Program-made: the position numbers and the translations under genes
Shown here: positions 25,391-58,841 of the stretch, piece by piece
How the letters are laid out: every line of letters begins with the position of its first letter
Position numbering within the stretch: position 1 is the stretch's first letter
Notes under the pieces: generated by a model
The model's input: only the letters and a program-made list of their open reading frames with translations
Database searches by the model: none
Told to the model about the DNA's origin: nothing
DNA from: Polytrichum commune
Lineage: Eukaryota > Streptophyta > Polytrichopsida > Polytrichales > Polytrichaceae
Length of the DNA: 64,000 nt
Reading direction: 5' to 3'
NCBI GenBank assembly: GCA_950295325.1
Contig: OX485807.1
Location: 9,823,001 to 9,887,000, forward strand

Positions 25391-25904
25391 GGGCCACTTC
25401 ACACATGAGGCTGAGAGCCCGTGACCGTCGTTTCACTTCAAGCACTCTCATTGGTGGGAAAAGGCGGAGCCGGTCCGAGTTCAAGCGTCCCACTTCGCTT
25501 GAGGGGCCGACGGAGTATGTGAATGCAAGATGGATGGTAAAGTGTACGTGGATTCCTGCATGGCATCCAATGGATTCATGTTTCATGGTCACTTGGATTG
25601 TTTTCAAACACCACTTCTTGGAGGTAGGCCTCACGCAAAAATCACCGGGAGACAATGGCACTCCGAACGCTCGCGATTGTTGGTTTATTATTATGATTTA
25701 TCATGCGTGAGGACCCGCGTTGATGGAGATTCATTGCAATAGCATTTGGTTGAGGGCCCGGTCACATGTGACTTCACACTACACTTGAGGGTTCGTGACC
25801 GCACTACATGAGTTTGGAGGTGCGCTGGGACGGCCTTTGGACACTTTCTTTTGGGCTCTCACAATTTTGTGGTCACGGCTCTTGGCGCGTGTGTGAAGTG
25901 GCCC
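25391..25904 (+). mobile_element. family A MITE, intact copy 1, TTA target duplication
   Basis: A 514-bp non-autonomous element. Left end GGGCCACTTCACACA; the right end, read inward, begins with the same 15 bases, and both ends run on to GTGACC about 35 bp in. TTA lies at 25388-25390 and 25905-25907. A TSD of TTA with GGG termini is the signature of PIF/Harbinger-type transposition. The interior holds no transposase. The open frames here on both strands (135-150 codons) recur as decayed sequence in the other copies and are not genes. A GC-rich sub-terminal block (AAGGCGGAGCCGGTCC) is conserved among copies. Confidence 0.9.
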
Positions 25905-27639: not shown

Positions 27640-27690
27640 CATGATAGAGGTGTGGAATGATTTTTGATAAAATTTGATCCGGTCTTATTA

Positions 27691-28160
27691 GGGCCACTTC
27701 ACATATGAGACTAAGAGCTTGTGACCATTACACTTCAAGCACTCTCAATGGTGGAAAAGGCGGAGCCAGTCCAAGTTCGCTTCACACTATGTTTGAGGGA
27801 CTGACGGAGTATGTGAATGCACGATGGATGTCAAGTCTACATGGATTCCTACATGACATTGAATGGATCACGTTTCATGGTCACTTGGACTATTTTCAAA
27901 AACCACCTCTTGGAGGTAGGCCTAACACAAAACCGGGAGACCTTGGTACTCCGAACGCTCACAAGCGTTGAGTTATTCTATTTCATAAGCATGAATAGAC
28001 ATACGATTCAAATAGCATTTCGTTTAGGGTATGGTCACATTTGAAGGTTTGTGACCACACTACATGATTTTGGAGGTGTGTTGACACAACCTTTGGACGC
28101 TTTCTTTTGGGCTCTCACAATTTCATGGTCACGGCTCTTGGCTTGTGTGTGAAGTGACCG
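27691..28160 (+). mobile_element. family A MITE, copy 2, right end eroded
   Basis: A 470-bp copy in the same order as 25391. The left end GGGCCACTTCACA is preceded by TTA. The right end is GTGTGTGAAGTGACCG followed by TCA, so the last bases and the target duplication have mutated. It shares GGAAAAGGCGGAGCC, ACGGAGTATGTGAATGCA, TTGGAGGTAGGCCT and GGTCACGGCTCTTGGC with copy 1, and lies 51 bp to the right of the palindromic MITE. Confidence 0.85.
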
Positions 28161-28983
28161 TCAAGGAAAAATACGTTAGATAATAGTCTGGTATGCTATA
28201 GTGTCATAACACCTTGAGTCTTAAGAAGCCATGCTGGGAAGGAGAACAATCAATGGTAATGAATGCAACATATGAGCCTTAAATTTTTAAGTGAATAAAA
28301 ACTCAAAGTTATTTGAAGAACGTTATTGACTGTTACATGCAAGTGGTGATTATTGTTGTTGTTGTAGTAACTGGGAGTATTTTTACATTGTTCCACTTGA
28401 ACTAGACAATAGGATTGGCTAGCTGAATCAAACATAATTTACCCTCAACCAACTAACCAATTTACGAAATTTTGAAGTACAAACAAGTAAGTATATGGTT
28501 AGTAAGGAAAGGACAGACGACTGTGAGACCGGATACAAACAGGAAGGACGAGTACATGCATGTATTTTAATTGTGTTTTTGGATGATACTCTTGCTTCAC
28601 TTTCGGATGTAACTTGTTTACTATGAGTCATACAATCAAAGATGTAAAGGCTAAACCAAACAACCAAACTATGGACTTCAACATGTATATGTTTGTGGAC
28701 ACTTGGTTACTTTGGATGAAGCCATGTGAAAGACGATAGTCTAACAGTACAACCAAAATGAGAATTAATCAAAGAAGATCAGTCGTATAAAAGAGGGAGT
28801 TGGGGACTAAAAAGTTGGGTCTCGCAAAAATGTGTCGTAGTATCGAGGGTGTTGTATAAACGGGTGTTGTATTAACGACGAGGTTAGGCTGTATAGGGAA
28901 GTGAAGTTTTTGGTGAGGGATAATACGTGAGTGATACATTCTCCTCTCATGGTTCATCACCCACACCCAACATTTGAGGGGTT
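28161..28983. other. intergenic DNA, no gene seen
   Basis: Only short open frames without domains. Confidence 0.5.
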
Positions 28984-29281
28984 GATCACACCGGCCGCTT
29001 CTGGCACCATCTGTCAGCATCTCCGACTATGATAGTGTGAAAAGTGGTGAGCTGACATCTATTTCTCAACATAATCCCCAACAACTTCACGGCTAGAACC
29101 GGATGGAAAGTTTGGTGTGATCGGGGCCTGATTGAGGAGCTGATCACACCGGCCGCTTCTGGCACCATCCGTCAGCATTTCCGGTTGTAGTAGTGTGAAA
29201 AGTGATGGTCCAAGATCTATTTCTCAACATAATCCCCAGCAATTTCATGGTTAGAATTGGACAAAAAGTTTGGTGTGATCG
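28984..29281. repeat. two tandem 158-bp units bounded by GATCACACC / GGTGTGATC
   Basis: Two direct copies start GATCACACCGGCCGCTTCTG at 28984 and 29142. Each runs through ATCTATTTCTCAACATAATC and ends AGTTTGGTGTGATCGG. The ends of each unit are therefore a 9-bp inverted repeat, so each unit resembles a tiny element. The units have diverged slightly. Neither codes. Confidence 0.8.
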
Positions 29282-29489
29282 GAGCATGAATTGAAGTTGG
29301 GGAAGCAAAGGAATCGTGTGATGTTCCAGTCTCTTAAGCTACATGGGAAGTTTCTGCACCCTTTCTTTCTTGGCTGTCCACACAATTTTTGTGCAGGCTC
29401 GGTGGATTAGTCAACACCAGCTCCACATGGATCAGTGTCCTCTGGGAATATTCTTGGACATAATTGGGCCTAATTCCTAGTGTTGTCAA
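29282..29489. other. spacer, no gene seen
   Basis: Nothing recognised. Confidence 0.4.
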
Positions 29490-29968: not shown

Positions 29969-29972
29969 TTGT

Positions 29973-30637
29973 GTGGAGGCCACACATGCTCAATAATGTG
30001 AATTCCAAAACAAAGACCGGTGGGCCAAGGTAAAAAATGAAATTCGGCCTTCACATGTATCTAACCTTCAGGAGCTTGGTTTCCATATTGGTCCCTCTTT
30101 TATTGGGTATAAATGTCCATTTTCAACTCAAATTCAAGACGGTAGTTTTGTAAAGCTTAAAACCCATGTTTTTTTTTGTTTTTTTTTTCAACGATGTTGA
30201 AAATGGACGATTTCAATGAAAAATAGAAAGAGAACGAGGGATCAACTTGGAAACCAACTCCTGCAAGGTTAGGCACATGCAAAGGCCCAAACCTCTTCTT
30301 ACCTTGGCCCGCCCGTCTCTGTTCTGATAGGGAGGCCAACACAAATTCAAAAATACCGGTTTCAAAACGGAGTTGGTAAGCCAAGGCAAACAAACTTTGG
30401 CCTTCAAACCTGCTTAACCTTGAAGGAGTTTGGTTTTCGAAGTCGTTCCTCTTTCTCTTCACAAAATTGTCGTCTTACATCGGAAGTGAGAGTGGACATT
30501 CATACCTAGTAAAAGAGGGCCCAACATGAAAACCAAACTCTTGAAAATTAGACACATATCAAGGCCAACCTTCGTTGTACCTTGGCCCACCGGTCGCCGT
30601 TTTGAGGCCGGTGTTTTTGAGAACGTGTGGCCTCCAC
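29973..30637. mobile_element. compound foldback element of four alternating inverted modules
   Basis: The outer ends are inverted over about 155 bp. Left: GTGGAGGCCACACATGCTCA, then ACCGGTGGGCCAAGGTA and GAGCTTGGTTT. Right, read inward: GTGGAGGCCACACGTTCTCA, ACCGGTGGGCCAAGGTA and GAGTTTGGTTT. Between them lies a second inverted pair of related modules (about 30180-30345 and 30346-30480), so the layout is A-A'-A-A'. The open frame at 30157-30462 falls inside and is an artefact. A simpler two-module relative is at 32891. Confidence 0.75.
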
Positions 30638-31073
30638 ATGACTAGGTGGCCGGCTCAAGGGGCCCGCAACAAGCGACTTATTCAACGCCAAATATAAGAC
30701 ACTTACAAATATGTATATGTACATAAATAATAAATATAGTGGGGCTTTCGATTTCAGCAGTGCAGGTTTGTTGGCAAGTGAGATCGGATCCATATGATCA
30801 TTAGGAGGAGTCTCCCAGGTGGATATCATCGACCTTTTTACTTGAGAAAGATTCCCATAGGGTTGCCACGGCATCGTCGCGTGTTGTGTGTAGAAGTACT
30901 TATAACCCTGCAATCGTGCCACCTTTGGCAACACATAATAACATATCCTTCCAAAACTTTCATTCCCCATCATTCCGAGTCTACTACAGTAGTTGGAGCC
31001 TCCTCAAACTCCACGTGACCCGATCCTCACGCCATCGGAGGAAGGGTTGAAAAAGCATGAAATCAACATGCAG
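30638..31073. other. intergenic DNA, no gene seen
   Basis: The 141-codon minus-strand frame (30548-30973) runs from here into the foldback arm. It has no domain and is not accepted. Confidence 0.45.
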
Positions 31074-31124
31074 GCCGAGAGGCGAGGCGAGGCGAGGCGA
31101 GGAGAGGAGAGGAGAGGAGAGGAG
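31074..31124. repeat. (GAGGC)n/(GAGGA)n pentanucleotide microsatellite
   Basis: Steps of GGCGA change to GGAGA without interruption, about ten units, ending at the left edge of the 92-bp tandem array. Confidence 0.9.
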
Positions 31125-31129
31125 GCATG

Positions 31130-32022
31130 CAAGCACTCATCCACTTTCCACACGAGGCTGAAGGCCCCGTGACCATTGCATTTCTACAATCCTCTCTTTG
31201 GTTGAAAAGGCAGAGACCGCTCAAGCACTCATCCACTTTCCACACGAGGCTGAAGGCCCCGTGACCATTGCATTTCTACAATCCTCTCTTTGGTCGAAAA
31301 GGCAGAGACCGCTCAAGCACTCATCCACTTTCCACACGAGGCTGAAGGCCCCGTGACCATTGCATTTCTACAATCCTCTCTTTGGTCGAAAAGGCAGAGA
31401 CCGCTCAAGCACTCATCCACTTTCCACATGAGGCTGAAGGCCCCGTGATCATGGGTCGAAAAGGCAGAGACCATTCAAGCATTCATCCGCTTTACACACG
31501 AGGTTGAAGGCCCCGTGACCATTGCATTTCTACAATCCTCTCTTTGGTAGAAAAAGCACAGAGCGTCCAAGCATTCATCCACTTTAAACACGAGGCTGAA
31601 GGCCCCGTGACAATTGCGTTTCTACAAGCTCTCTTTGGTTGAAAACGCGCAGAGCGTCCAAGCATTCATCCACTTTACACACGAGGTTGAAGGCCTCGTG
31701 ACTATTGCATTTCTACAATCTCTCATGGGTCAAAAAGGCAGAGACCGTTCAAGCATTCATCCACTTTACACATGAGGTTGAAGGCCCCGTGACCATTGCA
31801 TTTCTAGAATCTCTTATTGGTCGAAAAGGCGGAGACCGTCCAAGCATTCATCCACTTTACACATGAGGTTGAAGGCCCCGTGACCATTGCATTTGTACAC
31901 TCTCCCATTGGTTGAAAAGGCGGAGACCGTCCAATCATTCATCCACTTTACACATGAGGCTGAAGGCCCCGTGACCATTGCATTTTTACAATCTCTCTTT
32001 GGTCAAAAAGGCAGAGACCGTC
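31130..32022 (+). repeat. ten-unit tandem array derived from the family A MITE terminus
   Basis: Direct units start CAAGCA(C/T)TCATCCACTTT at 31130, 31222, 31314, 31406, 31476, 31568, 31659, 31750, 31841 and 31932. Lengths are 92, 92, 92, 70, 92, 91, 91, 91, 91 and 91 bp. The first three are nearly identical, the fourth has an internal deletion, and later ones drift. Each unit corresponds to the first 90 bp of family A in the same order: CACTTnnACACGAGGCTGA, GGCCCCGTGACCATT, a CTCTCNNTGG block and AAAAGGCAGAGACC. The array runs without a break into a family A body at 32023. It is thus an expansion of a transposon terminus, not a satellite of independent origin. Confidence 0.9.
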
Positions 32023-32288
32023 CAAGTTCACTTCACATTTGAAGGTGAAGCGCCTAAGGGCCTCAAGAAGTTATCATGGATGAAAAGTGTACATGGATTC
32101 CTACATGGCAAATTTTAAATAAAGTTTCATGTTTCGTGGATCTTCCAGGGTTTGCATTAGGTTCACTTCTAAGAGGTACGTATGAGGCAAATTCCGGGAG
32201 ACCATGCCAATGATATAGCCTTTGGATGAGAATCAAGGGCCCTCACAATTACATGGTCACATCCCTTGGCTCTTGTGTGAAGTGAGCC
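32023..32288 (+). mobile_element. family A-related element body attached to the array
   Basis: Continues the last array unit with GTTCACTTCACATTTGAAGG, GTACATGGATTCCTACATGGC, a CGGGAGACC block, CCCTCACAATTACATGGTCAC and GGCTCTTGTGTGAAGTGAGCC, which is the family A right half in order but shortened. With the array upstream it forms a single, length-inflated family A copy whose original left end is replaced by the array and microsatellite. Confidence 0.75.
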
Positions 32289-32755
32289 ACTTGACAATAG
32301 AGCTTGAGGGCCCTTAACCTGTGATATACAAGTTATGTGCTTGGTCGAGAACTCGAAGAGGGTCCAAATTTGAACTATATTTTGAGGGCTTGATAGACTA
32401 CACAAATTTGAATGGATGAAAGTATATAAATGGCATCCTACATGGCACCAATTGGATGATTTTTTATGGTCTTATGGGTGTTGTGCTAGGTCCAATAGAA
32501 AGAGGTGGGCCTAACACAAAACTAAGAACCGTGGCAAATATTTAGATTGCCATTGGCTCCTAGAAATACTATAATGTCATGATGGGGTCCCGGACTAACT
32601 ACTATCTTAGAATATTCATAAAATATGTCCCTTAAAATGGTCCACTTTCACTTTACATGAAACTTGAGGGCTCGTCGATTGCATAATTAGTTTTCTATAT
32701 GGCCTTTGGATGATTTTCAAGTGTCACGGCTCTTGGTCTCTGTGTAAAACGACCT
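32284..32755 (+). mobile_element. highly diverged family A MITE
   Basis: The left end GAGCCACTTGACA, followed by a CTTGAGGGCCCTTAACC block, aligns with the family A terminus. It overlaps the right end of the preceding element by 5 bp. The interior keeps GGCATCCTACATGGCA, GAGGTGGGCCTAACACAAAAC and GTGTCACGGCTCTTGG. The right end is GTGTAAAACGACCT followed by TTA. The oldest-looking copy in the window. Confidence 0.65.
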
Positions 32756-32890
32756 TTATTTACCTTTTGGTTAAAGGTGACCACAAATATCCCCTAAGTG
32801 GAGCCCACAAACCATATAATTATACCAATAAGTTAGCTGATTCTTGTGGAATTGTTTACAAAAATTAATTTGCCATAGGATGTCATGCAT

Positions 32891-33253
32891 GTGGAGGCCC
32901 ACACATGTTCAAAAATGCCGGTTTCGAAATGGAGTTTGGATATCCAAGGTAGAATAATTTTGGCCATGACATGTGCCTAACTTTGAGGAGATTGATTTCA
33001 ATGTTGGCCCCTTTTGTTACTAGGTGTAAGCGTCCGTTGTCAACTCCAATCCAAGACAGTGGTTTTGCAAGGCTTAAAACTTTTTTTTTAATTAGAGTTT
33101 GAAAGGGATGGTTTAAACCAAAAAAAAAAACAGAGGGATCAACCTTGAAACCAAGCTCCTCGAAGTTAGGCACATGTCAAGGCCAAACTTCTTTTACCTT
33201 GGCTTACCAACCTCTGTTGTGAAACCAACATTTTTGAACGTGTGTGGCCTCCT
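32891..33253. mobile_element. two-module foldback element
   Basis: A 363-bp inverted pair. Left: GTGGAGGCCCACACATGTTC, AAAAATGCCGGTTTC and GACATGTGCCTAACTTTGAGG. Right, read inward: GGAGGCCACACACGTTC, AAAAATGTTGGTTTC and GACATGTGCCTAACTTCGAGG. A poly(T)/poly(A) pair (33076-33085 and 33119-33130) lies at the centre. It is the simple form of the compound element at 29973. Confidence 0.8.
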
Positions 33254-36008: not shown

Positions 36009-36022
36009 AAATCCATTCAGGG
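36009..36022 (+). repeat. SINE target-site duplication, right
   Basis: Second copy of AAATCCATTCAGGG, at the end of the A-rich tail. Its last three bases are the original terminus of the family A element, so the SINE landed on the element's left junction. Confidence 0.85.
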
Positions 36023-36549
36023 TCACTCCACACACAAGATTGAGAGCCCGTGATCATTACACTTCAAGCACTCTCGTTGGTGGAAACGGCGGAGCCGGTC
36101 CAAGTTCGCTTCACACTAACCCTTGAGGGACCAACGGAGTATATAAGTGAATGCAAGATGGATGGTGAAGTCTACATGGACTTCTACATGGCATCGAATG
36201 GATCATGTTTCATGGTCTCACTTGGATTTGTTTCAAATACCATCTCTTGGATGTAGGCCTCACATGAAACCACCAAGAGACCCTGTCACTCCGAAAGTTC
36301 ACGACCGTTGATTTACTCTATTTTAATCATGTGTCATGACCCCGCGTGAATAGACATTCATTGAAATAGCATTTGGTTGAGGACCCGGTAACACACGACT
36401 TCACATGACTTCACACTCCACTTGAGGGTCCATGACCCACAACACTACATGAGTTCGGAGGTGTGTTGGGACGACCTTTGGGCACTTTCTTTTGGGCTCT
36501 CACAACTTCGTTGTGGTCACAGCTCTTGGCTCGTGCATGAAGTGGAGCC
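36020..36549 (+). mobile_element. family A MITE, copy 3
   Basis: A 530-bp copy: left end GGGTCACTCCACACACAAG, then GAGAGCCCGTGATCATTACA, AAACGGCGGAGCCGG, TTGGATGTAGGCCT, GGTTGAGGACCCGG and CTTTTGGGCTCTCACAA. Right end GCATGAAGTGGAGC. TCA precedes it and CCT/TCT follows, so the duplication has eroded. The SINE abuts the left side and the 75-bp direct repeat abuts the right side. Confidence 0.85.
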
Positions 36550-39353: not shown

Positions 39354-39356
39354 TTA

Positions 39357-39888
39357 GGGCCACTTTACACATGAGCCACGAGCCACGAGCCGTGACCATG
39401 AGATTGTGAGAGCCCAAAAGAAAGTGTCCAAAGGCCGTCCCAACACACCTCCAAACTCATGTAGTGTGGTCACGGACCCTCACGTGTAGTGTGAAAGGCC
39501 GTATGTGACCGGGCCCTCAACCAAATGCTATTTCAACAAACTTCTAATCACGCGGGCCCCGCACACATGATAAAATCAGAATAAACCAACGGTTGTGAGC
39601 GTTCGGAGTGCCATGGTCTCCCAACGGTTTTGTATTAGGCCTATCTCCAAGAAGTGGTTTTGGAAAACTGTCTGAACAAGTGACCATGAAACGTGATCCA
39701 TTCGATGCCATGTAAGAATCCATGTAGACTTTACCATCCATCTTGCATTCACATGCTCACTCCGCCGGTCCCTCAAGCGTAAGTGAGTGTGAAGCGAACA
39801 TGGACCAGCTCCGCCCTTCTCCACCAACGAGAGTGCTTGAAGTGTAACGATGGTCACGGGCCCTCAGTCTCGTGTGTGAAGTGGGCCC
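39357..39888 (-). mobile_element. family A MITE, intact copy 4, inverted, TTA target duplication
   Basis: A 532-bp element in the opposite orientation to the others. Plus-strand left end GGGCCACTTTACACATGAG, right end CGTGTGTGAAGTGGGCCC. TTA at 39354-39356 and 39889-39891 is a clean duplication. The left terminus carries a small internal duplication (GAGCCACGAGCCACGAGCC). Interior landmarks (AACGGTTGTGAGCGTTCGG, CACTCCGCCGG) match copies 1-3 reversed. The 93-codon open frame inside is shared repeat sequence. Confidence 0.92.
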
Positions 39889-56829: not shown

Positions 56830-58841
56830 CTACTTGACGGGGGAGCAAATGAGCCCAACCTTAGGCATCAAGTAAACCTGGCTTTTGATGACTCGATCCT
56901 GGACAAGAAATCCGGGTGTCACCATGAAGCCAACTTTAGAAGAGAAAAGAGATGAGTCGAACTGAGAGACTGTCAACACATCCAACGACTCCATAAACTT
57001 GGGATCAAAAGTGGTCGAGGTCTTCACACAGAAGATAGCAGCTGGAGGTTCAAAGGAGAAAGCCAGTTTGTGTGCACGCCACACATGCTTCATTGCCTCC
57101 AGGAAATCCTCAACCAGACTTTGAGGCCATTCGTCCCACCACTGTAATTCATCATGAATTGCTTGGAACTTCCTGTTGCAAAACATATGAAAATTCCTGT
57201 GATATACCTTGCCATCCGGATCGATTGCATCTGTTGGGCTAAGCAGCGCCAGCTTCTGGTACTCATCCCATGCTGACATCCTGATTGACAAGGATGCATT
57301 GGACTTCTCAAGGAGACCATAACTTTCACTTCCAAATTCACCAAGAACAATTCTGTTCACCCAAGCTTCTACCCCATATTTCAAGTGCCACGGTTTAGCG
57401 AAGGACGTATGAGGCATCAATCGGGCAATCAAAGCACCCACCACGTCTTTTGATTTGCCGTCAAAATCATCCATGGAGACTCTCGCCTCTCCATGTTTCA
57501 CCAGTGATGCACAGAAGCTGCGTAAGAACGCTTTTTGGACTTGAACTATTTCTTCAAATAGGGAAGTTGTGGAGTCATTCCAGGCAGTCTTATTGAAGGC
57601 CAAGGAGACTGGATTACTCAAGTCCCTTGGGGGACCCATGCACCCCAGCGTCCTTGATTTAGGGGCAGATTTCGCCCTCCTAGGTGTATTGTCCTTTTCA
57701 CGAGGACCTTTTTTCTCACTCGTGAACTCTGGCACTTTAGAAGGCGCTTTGCGAGGTGTTTGGGCAAAGTCGTCACCACCTTCACACGGTACTGATGGCA
57801 AAGCCAGCTGAGACGGTTGCAGGGTTATTGTCTTGATTTCTTGACACATGGATTGTAGAGCACTGTACATCTGCTTCATCTCTTTCATTTCTTGCTGGTG
57901 TTGTTCACGAAAACTCGACCACTCCTCTTCGAACTTGGGAGAGGGTGATGGTTGTGCAGGCTTGGACCGTCTGCGAATACCGCAAGTGAGCACAGAGAAA
58001 AATAGACAAAAATGGCATACACCTCGATTCGTGCTCAGTAACACAACAATCATCACGACCTGATAACATTCTGTGCTACTTTCAAAATGACTAGGAAAGA
58101 TATCCTCAGCGCGCCCAATGCTCAACATGGAGCACAGCAACTGGCGTTCCATTACTCGGGCTTGTTCACTTTAGAAACAACATCTCCTCGATTCGTAATT
58201 CGTACCTGAAGAAAATACCGGTCACAGATTTCGACAGCTTGCGATTGAGGGCTCCGGGAGCAGAGGAAGGCGTCTTGCTGCCAGACGGTTTGCAAGCGTC
58301 TGGAGTGGAGGATGGGGACAAATCAATTCCCAACCCAATCCCATTCCACGATTTACATCCGCAGCCAACCTCAGATACTTGGGGCACATGTTGGCCTCTA
58401 CCTGCAAGAAAATGGGCAAAATAATGAGTTGTGGCAATGTGCTCGAACGCAACAAAATTTCTGTTGAAATTCCCTTGGTGGACAATGACTAAACAGATGA
58501 TATTGGCAACAAGATTGAATTTCTTCAAGAATGATATGTTCACGGACAATAAACTTACCTCCAAGAATTGAAGGGTCCAGAGTATTTCTTCTTGCTCTGT
58601 TCGTGGACTTGGACCGTCCTGTAGGAGGGACCCTGTGACGGTCTCCATTGGGGGTCCCCAACCTCTTTGTGAAAGGATCCTCAAACTTATCTACAGAAAT
58701 CCGCCCTCCATTGCGACCCTGCTCCTCCGGGGTCTTCGACTTTTTCACCGCCGCACTTTTGCTCCCTCCCTGCTGACTCTCCCGCATGGCTGTAAAACCG
58801 GAGATACAGCCGGGATTGATAAATCTGCTCAAGGACGACAT
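56830..58841 (-). CDS. GIL1/IRKI-like (DUF641 family) protein, three coding exons
   Basis: Coding exons on the minus strand are 58841-58559, 58401-58206 and 57970-56830, giving 539 residues. Introns start GTAAGT and GTACGA, end TTGCAG and TTCGCAG, and both join in phase. The ATG at 58841 is preceded by an in-frame TAA 15 bases upstream. Residues 1-160 are low-complexity, Ser/Lys/Pro-rich. About 173-208 form a charged amphipathic helix, probably coiled coil. About 230-270 are a basic linker. About 290-539 match the C-terminal domain of plant GIL1 (GRAVITROPIC IN THE LIGHT 1) and IRKI (IRK-interacting) proteins: FEEIVQVQKAF, FCNRKF near 428, MKHVWRAHKLAFSF, FMESL, and VGFMVTPGF (506-514) followed by VIKSQVYLMP. 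Relatives act in light/phytochrome control of gravitropism and bind a receptor kinase. This copy's role is inferred only. The N-terminal half looks divergent. Confidence 0.82.
57971..58205 (-). other. intron 2 of the GIL1/IRKI-like gene
   Basis: 235 bp. Donor CAG|GTACGA at 58206/58205, acceptor TTCGCAG| at 57971. It splits an Arg codon (AG|A), restoring TGIFF-R-RSKPAQ. An unspliced frame runs through part of it, giving a false start upstream of exon 3. Confidence 0.8.
58402..58558 (-). other. intron 1 of the GIL1/IRKI-like gene
   Basis: 157 bp. Strong donor GAG|GTAAGT and a pyrimidine-rich acceptor TTTTCTTGCAG. It splits a Gly codon (G|GT), giving PSILG-G-RGQHV. Phase agrees with the exon 2 frame that leads into intron 2. 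Confidence 0.8.

Follow-up and report, generated by a model that had tools for sequence, protein, structure and literature searches.

The 5' end of a MITE was found multiplied into ten direct tandem units at 31130-32026 of the window (the whole 64,000-nucleotide stretch of Polytrichum commune DNA that was analyzed), where the array leads directly into a MITE body at 32027-32288. We think that this array is probably best read as an in situ tandem duplication across the insertion boundary of the element, followed by unequal exchange. The original prediction had proposed that a MITE seeds a satellite here. The seeding went beyond that claim, as 29 of 35 loci read in the genome were TRF-positive, the window included, and the arrays likely favor the ends of the elements.

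The ten units were detected by TRF on the plus strand, with scores of 625 and 860 for the two halves of the array. The best score among 100 base-shuffles of 30001-33000 was 52, confirming that the predicted units are real. From the unit table, the units start at 31130, 31222, 31314, 31406, 31476, 31568, 31659, 31750, 31841, and 31932, and each holds an 11-bp leader and about 81 bp of the MITE 5' end. Units 1, 2, 3, and 5 are 92 bp long, units 6 to 9 are 91 bp, unit 10 is 91 bp plus CAAG, and unit 4 (31406-31475) is 70 bp as a result of a 22-bp loss. Pairwise identity among units 1 to 3 was 98.9-100%, whereas every remaining pair showed 80.0-93.4%, in line with the predicted near-identity of the left units. 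A purine-rich simple repeat, (GAGGC/GAGAG)n, was also found by TRF on the plus strand at 31077-31124; it ends 5 bp left of the array and may, as a fragile site, have helped to found it.

Plant PIF/Harbinger MITEs have TIRs starting with GGGCC, a 3-bp TTA/TAA duplication, a length of about 0.35-0.5 kb, and thousands of copies. The MITE family studied here resembles them in TIR start, TTA/TAA duplication, size, and copy number, and family A looks, by its sequence features, like a PIF/Harbinger (Tourist)-like MITE, with a 3-bp TTA/TAA duplication and short GGG/GGC TIRs. The reference copy of family A (25391-25904, plus strand) is 514 bp long and has TTA on both sides; the TIRs of the family are GGGCCACTTCACACA and TGTGTGAAGTGGCCC. 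Eleven measured copies were 499-514 bp long. Both TIRs could be read in these 11, and 8 of them had identical TTA or TAA flanks; a twelfth copy, with no clean TIR pair, was left out of this count. Other family A copies in the window, each with a single 5' terminus, lie at 27689-28159 and 36019-36545 on the plus strand and at 39356-39887 on the minus strand. The MITE family is thus short, uniform in length, and high in copy number: in the 408-Mb assembly (64 contigs, taken as given), the 5' word had 3815 matches against 33 for its backwards control, and the 3' word had 4025 against 0.

The single body that follows the array (32027-32288, plus strand) begins at the inner word and ends in a 3' TIR that is damaged (TGTGTGAAGTGAG...). 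The original prediction that the array runs into a family A body stood as far as a MITE body is concerned, but not as to the family. The body matched positions 84-335 of L022, a subfamily B element, at 79% with a score of 302 (shuffle maximum, 33), while its score against family A was 89 (shuffle maximum, 39). Judging from these body scores, the window array and its body belong to subfamily B, a sister of family A with elements of about 340 bp. Unit 10 scored about equally against both (92 to B and 90 to A), and BLAST of the unit gave 81% to L022 and 72-77% to the family A copies in the window. We also looked for polarity along the array, with the body-side units nearest to the MITE. Against L022 the trend was weak (unit 8, 67/78; unit 10, 66/82; unit 1, 61/78), and against L024 there was no clear trend across the window units, so we set this candidate aside.

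A second, diverged A-type MITE (32290-32748, plus strand) adjoins the first head to tail and aligns to family A positions 7-492 with a score of 163 (shuffle maximum, 39). The target-site duplication of the array element is unreadable, since its 3' TIR is damaged and this second MITE abuts it. A few other features were noted in the window. The segment 32893-33200 has a 72% match on the opposite strand (33252-32946), which makes the stretch near-palindromic, and there are relatives in both orientations at 29972-30640; 32893-33252 and 29972-30640 represent another family, rich in inverted repeats. TRF also reported a 158-bp tandem duplication at 28974-29294, with two copies and 83% matches. GIL1/IRKI is a plant family, and an ORF on the minus strand at 56830-58152 contains its C-terminal domain (Pfam PF24994, E 2.6e-09).

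The left edge of the array was predicted to be a transposon terminus. Instead, unit 1 opens with the leader CAAGCACTCAT, whose first copy (31130-31140, plus strand) lies outside the TIR word. The leader stands ahead of the TIR word in 10 of 10 units, the leftmost one too, and reads CAAGCACTCAT in units 1 to 4, CAAGCATTCAT in units 5 to 9, and CAATCATTCAT in unit 10. With a leader to the left of the first TIR, the array straddles the left boundary of the element rather than lying inside it, contrary to what had been supposed. A genome search with the whole unit reported 53 matches, 40 of 1081 candidates being scored; all 43 matches outside the array began at unit base 12 or higher, past the leader. 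The sequence to the left of the array (30900-31129) also scored no better against the MITE than shuffles did.

The junction word GTCCAAGCATTCATCCACTTTACACA, searched with up to 3 mismatches, gave 6 matches in the assembly, all 6 of them in the window array. The window unit therefore does not form a satellite family of its own, and the independent genome-wide satellite that would have spoken against the original prediction was not seen. The same result bears on the view that an independent satellite invaded the MITE or was captured by it. Satellite capture was suggested in the case of the Xenopus repeat miDNA4 (PMC12628747). As a source of the window unit, we rejected it as very improbable: the units align to MITE ends, as predicted for the MITE 5' end, and the junction is confined to the window array.

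Taking these results into account, we considered how the array could have been founded. On the preferred reading, duplication across the insertion boundary, a subfamily B MITE would have inserted at the window locus. A stretch beginning about 11 bp outside its left TIR and reaching about 81 bp inward would later have been duplicated head to tail in situ. CAAG occurs both in the leader and in the body at the boundary of the unit, and the duplication probably arose there by replication slippage or by microhomology-mediated repair. The number would then have grown to ten units through unequal exchange or more slippage, with the latest growth at the left edge. The role of CAAG as microhomology and the exchange step are both inferred. 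The leader would be captured host left flank, although it could be filler DNA; its host origin is deduced, since neither an empty site nor a sister allele was seen. Pairs among units 4 to 10 are only 80-93% alike, implying that the junction that founded the array is old and perhaps altered since.

According to the original prediction, slippage or exchange between a terminal word and an inner word about 90 bp inward, equal to the period, generated the array. Here CACTTCACAC, as terminal word, would have recombined or slipped with GCTTCACAC, as inner word, within the MITE, with the unit equal to their distance. Both words do occur in the family; however, of 18 copies measured, 13 have them 83 bp apart and three others 81, 86, and 87 bp apart, while the words were not found in the remaining two. 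Founding of this kind would give 83-bp units without extra bases, but the window units are 91-92 bp long and carry a non-MITE leader, which stands ahead of the first TIR as well. Word-to-word slippage was therefore rejected for the window, where we hold it to be unlikely. The idea fared better elsewhere: it fits L029, where the period is 83 bp, the junction falls in the repeated word, and TIRs are present at both ends, and it nearly fits L032 (82 bp, junction at TGAGGG). Overall, the earlier interpretation was partly supported.

The leader might also be explained by an internal MITE duplication with 8-11 filler bases at the joint, the true left terminus having been lost later through exchange or deletion, which would leave filler at the start of the array. 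In agreement with this, the outermost TIR bases GGG are absent from the window array units and from the element as a whole, and joints at L050, L051, and L056 hold bases that the match chains give to neither side. We nevertheless regard it as improbable: it needs an extra loss precisely at a unit boundary, and at five other loci host flank is visibly within the unit. At L054 and L055, each listed TIR, the first one too, has about 20 bp of flank ahead of it; at L048, L057, and L059 the flank comes after the repeated 3' TIRs. L025 probably also holds host flank, with an indel. Units that include host flank most simply arose after insertion, as duplication across the boundary would have it for the window.

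To search for arrays at other loci, we used pairs of exact words, so that diverged arrays and those with other spacings are missed by these counts. With pairs of the 5' word at spacings of 60-90, 110-140, and 142-202, we obtained 48 matches, which fall in 20 loci, including the window; 2.2 pairs were expected under uniform placement, an expectation that ignores nesting, and many of the 48 matches share one array. Pairs of the 3' word at spacings of 61-121 gave 67 matches at 13 loci (grouped by hand), against 1.2 expected. The 35 loci read comprise these 33 loci from end word pairs, L057 (a 3' locus found in a list), and one mid-element locus. TRF was positive at 29 of the 35: 19 of the 20 5' loci, 8 of the 13 3' loci, L057, and the mid-element locus. 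At least 2.9 copies were present at 25 of the 29, while L027, L038, L039, and L059 have about two. As a control, none of 21 ordinary copies, taken as best matches to other queries with 150 bp on each side, carried an array. L063 is TRF-positive with a MITE match of just 22-34 bp per unit.

No TRF row was obtained for L058, L060, L061, L062, and L064 (3') or for L035 (5'), and these loci were not counted as arrays. L060 contains repeated 3' pieces despite lacking a TRF row. At L058, L062, L064, and probably L061, MITEs adjoin or lie within each other, which brings same-strand 3' ends close together with no tandem repeats. L026, a possible cluster outside the 35 loci, has no tandem row. Such side-by-side MITEs raise the question of whether nested or repeated insertion built the window array, where the second copy likewise abuts at 32290. 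This explanation was contradicted at 31130-32026 and has next to no weight in our assessment: the units hold only part of a 5' end and keep a nearly constant period, and that interval has no match to the 3' end.

Unit lengths among the TRF-positive loci range from 45 to 222 bp. The largest array seen, at L049 (C6:22952000-22955700), repeats a 45-bp unit about 53 times within an A-type element with TTA on both sides; 73- and 118-bp variants were observed at two spots in it. There are 20 units of 79 bp at L052, about 10.7 units of 145 bp ahead of a B body at L025, 7 units of 169 bp at L053, where the array starts exactly at the TIR, 7 units of 83 bp at L029, and 5 units of 71 bp at L037 in an element flanked by TAA. 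The periods are unlike between loci save for three pairs: the window and L027 (91), L028 and L036 (155), and L034 and L048 (126). The members of these pairs differ in junction, subfamily, and end, respectively, and the arrays are therefore read as separate events. If duplication across the boundary is correct for the window, like events with other break points at either end of other family copies would have produced these private arrays.

L027 (C1:56550700-56552100) carries a dimer, and 39 of 40 scored candidates match it from query base 102 or 107 only, so the 39 others carry one unit. L027 and L031 (C2:27907100-27908900) represent a third subfamily, B-like in the 5' part and A-like in the 3' part. 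It is numerous and uniform: 39 other places matched roughly the last 227 bases of a 328-bp query at 93% (40 candidates scored).

No array at both ends was seen in the match chains of the TRF-positive loci, some of whose stretches miss an element end. The arrangement of a foldback element, with long TIRs and matching tandem repeats at both ends, was accordingly not found. Flank is not part of every array, which speaks against capture as the general rule. At L032, L037, and L049, TIRs with matching flanks enclose the entire array, and its formation may have preceded or followed the insertion; the L029 array is also within its element. Joints between units varied. At joints of L027, L029, L032, L033, L037, and L049, neighboring match chains share 2-11 bp, two L029 joints have no overlap, and joints of L050, L051, L052, and L056 contain 1-22 bases that the chains leave unassigned. 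Joints as varied as these are what we would expect from microhomology- or slippage-type duplication rather than from one fixed word pair.

We then compared the ends with the middle of the element. A mid-element word pair at the same spacings as the 3' pair gave 1 locus (L067, three 124-bp units), against 13 for the 3' pair, of which 8 were TRF-positive. The mid word was present at 18 of 22 loci read, the 5' word at 15, and the 3' word at 16, the mid word having been chosen as the best conserved on these same loci. The likely preference for ends rests on this one word and one spacing range. It may stem from words that recur close to the ends, from breaks or fork stalling at TIRs, or from both. 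We tentatively suggest, at rather less than even confidence, that MITE ends are standing hot spots of satellite birth. Once the element has inserted, the repair of TIR breaks or stalled forks, perhaps left by transposase, would yield tandem duplications able to include host flank and then grow, giving stages from a dimer to more than 50 units.

The conversion of transposable elements to satellites is well documented. We know of no description of PIF/Harbinger MITEs in which ends repeatedly becoming tandem arrays is a trait of the group. In Tetris/TIR-220 of Drosophila virilis, the terminal region of a non-autonomous DNA transposon was apparently tandemly duplicated; the repeat and the terminal domain have 37 bp in common, the copy number is unlike between two alleles, and kb-size satellite-like arrays are derived from it, as far as the accessible sections of that paper go (PMC4079207). 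The present MITE family shares with Tetris the birth of repeats from the terminal region of a non-autonomous DNA transposon. Yet Tetris, as portrayed in those sections, is a foldback element with one kind of unit in its TIRs that grew into satellite arrays, whereas the MITE family has a unit per locus, arrays seen at just one end of an element, some units with host flank, and a window unit that has not spread.

Xstir and miDNA4 of Xenopus occur as MITEs, tandem arrays, and MITE-plus-array composites, and short-direct-repeat microhomologies were proposed to drive their longer internal arrays, going by the available portions of two papers (PMC12628747, PMC9659126). In that system, as these portions present it, the repeat travels on the mobile element; in contrast, the arrays here were apparently founded copy by copy, and some most simply after insertion. 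D1100 of rye is a plant satellite attributed to a MITE in the part of the source that was available (PMC9659126), and we liken it to the MITE arrays by name and attribution only. In a partial body of mainly open-access literature, we found no MITE family described as having given rise to many private arrays at its ends with host flank inside the unit. MITE-derived satellites are already known, and the new part is apparently the recurrent, locus-private, and apparently end-biased birth.

The starts of satellites are hard to see, as most are observed after spreading and losing their origin. Here, one MITE family in one genome offers 29 readable cases, from two copies to about 53, in which the parent element is recognizable, and the captured flank is still legible at several array loci. 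The local multiplication of MITE ends also affects repeat annotation. Taken together, these arrays permit tests of where duplication starts, which homology it uses, whether it follows insertion, and why it seems to prefer the ends of the element.
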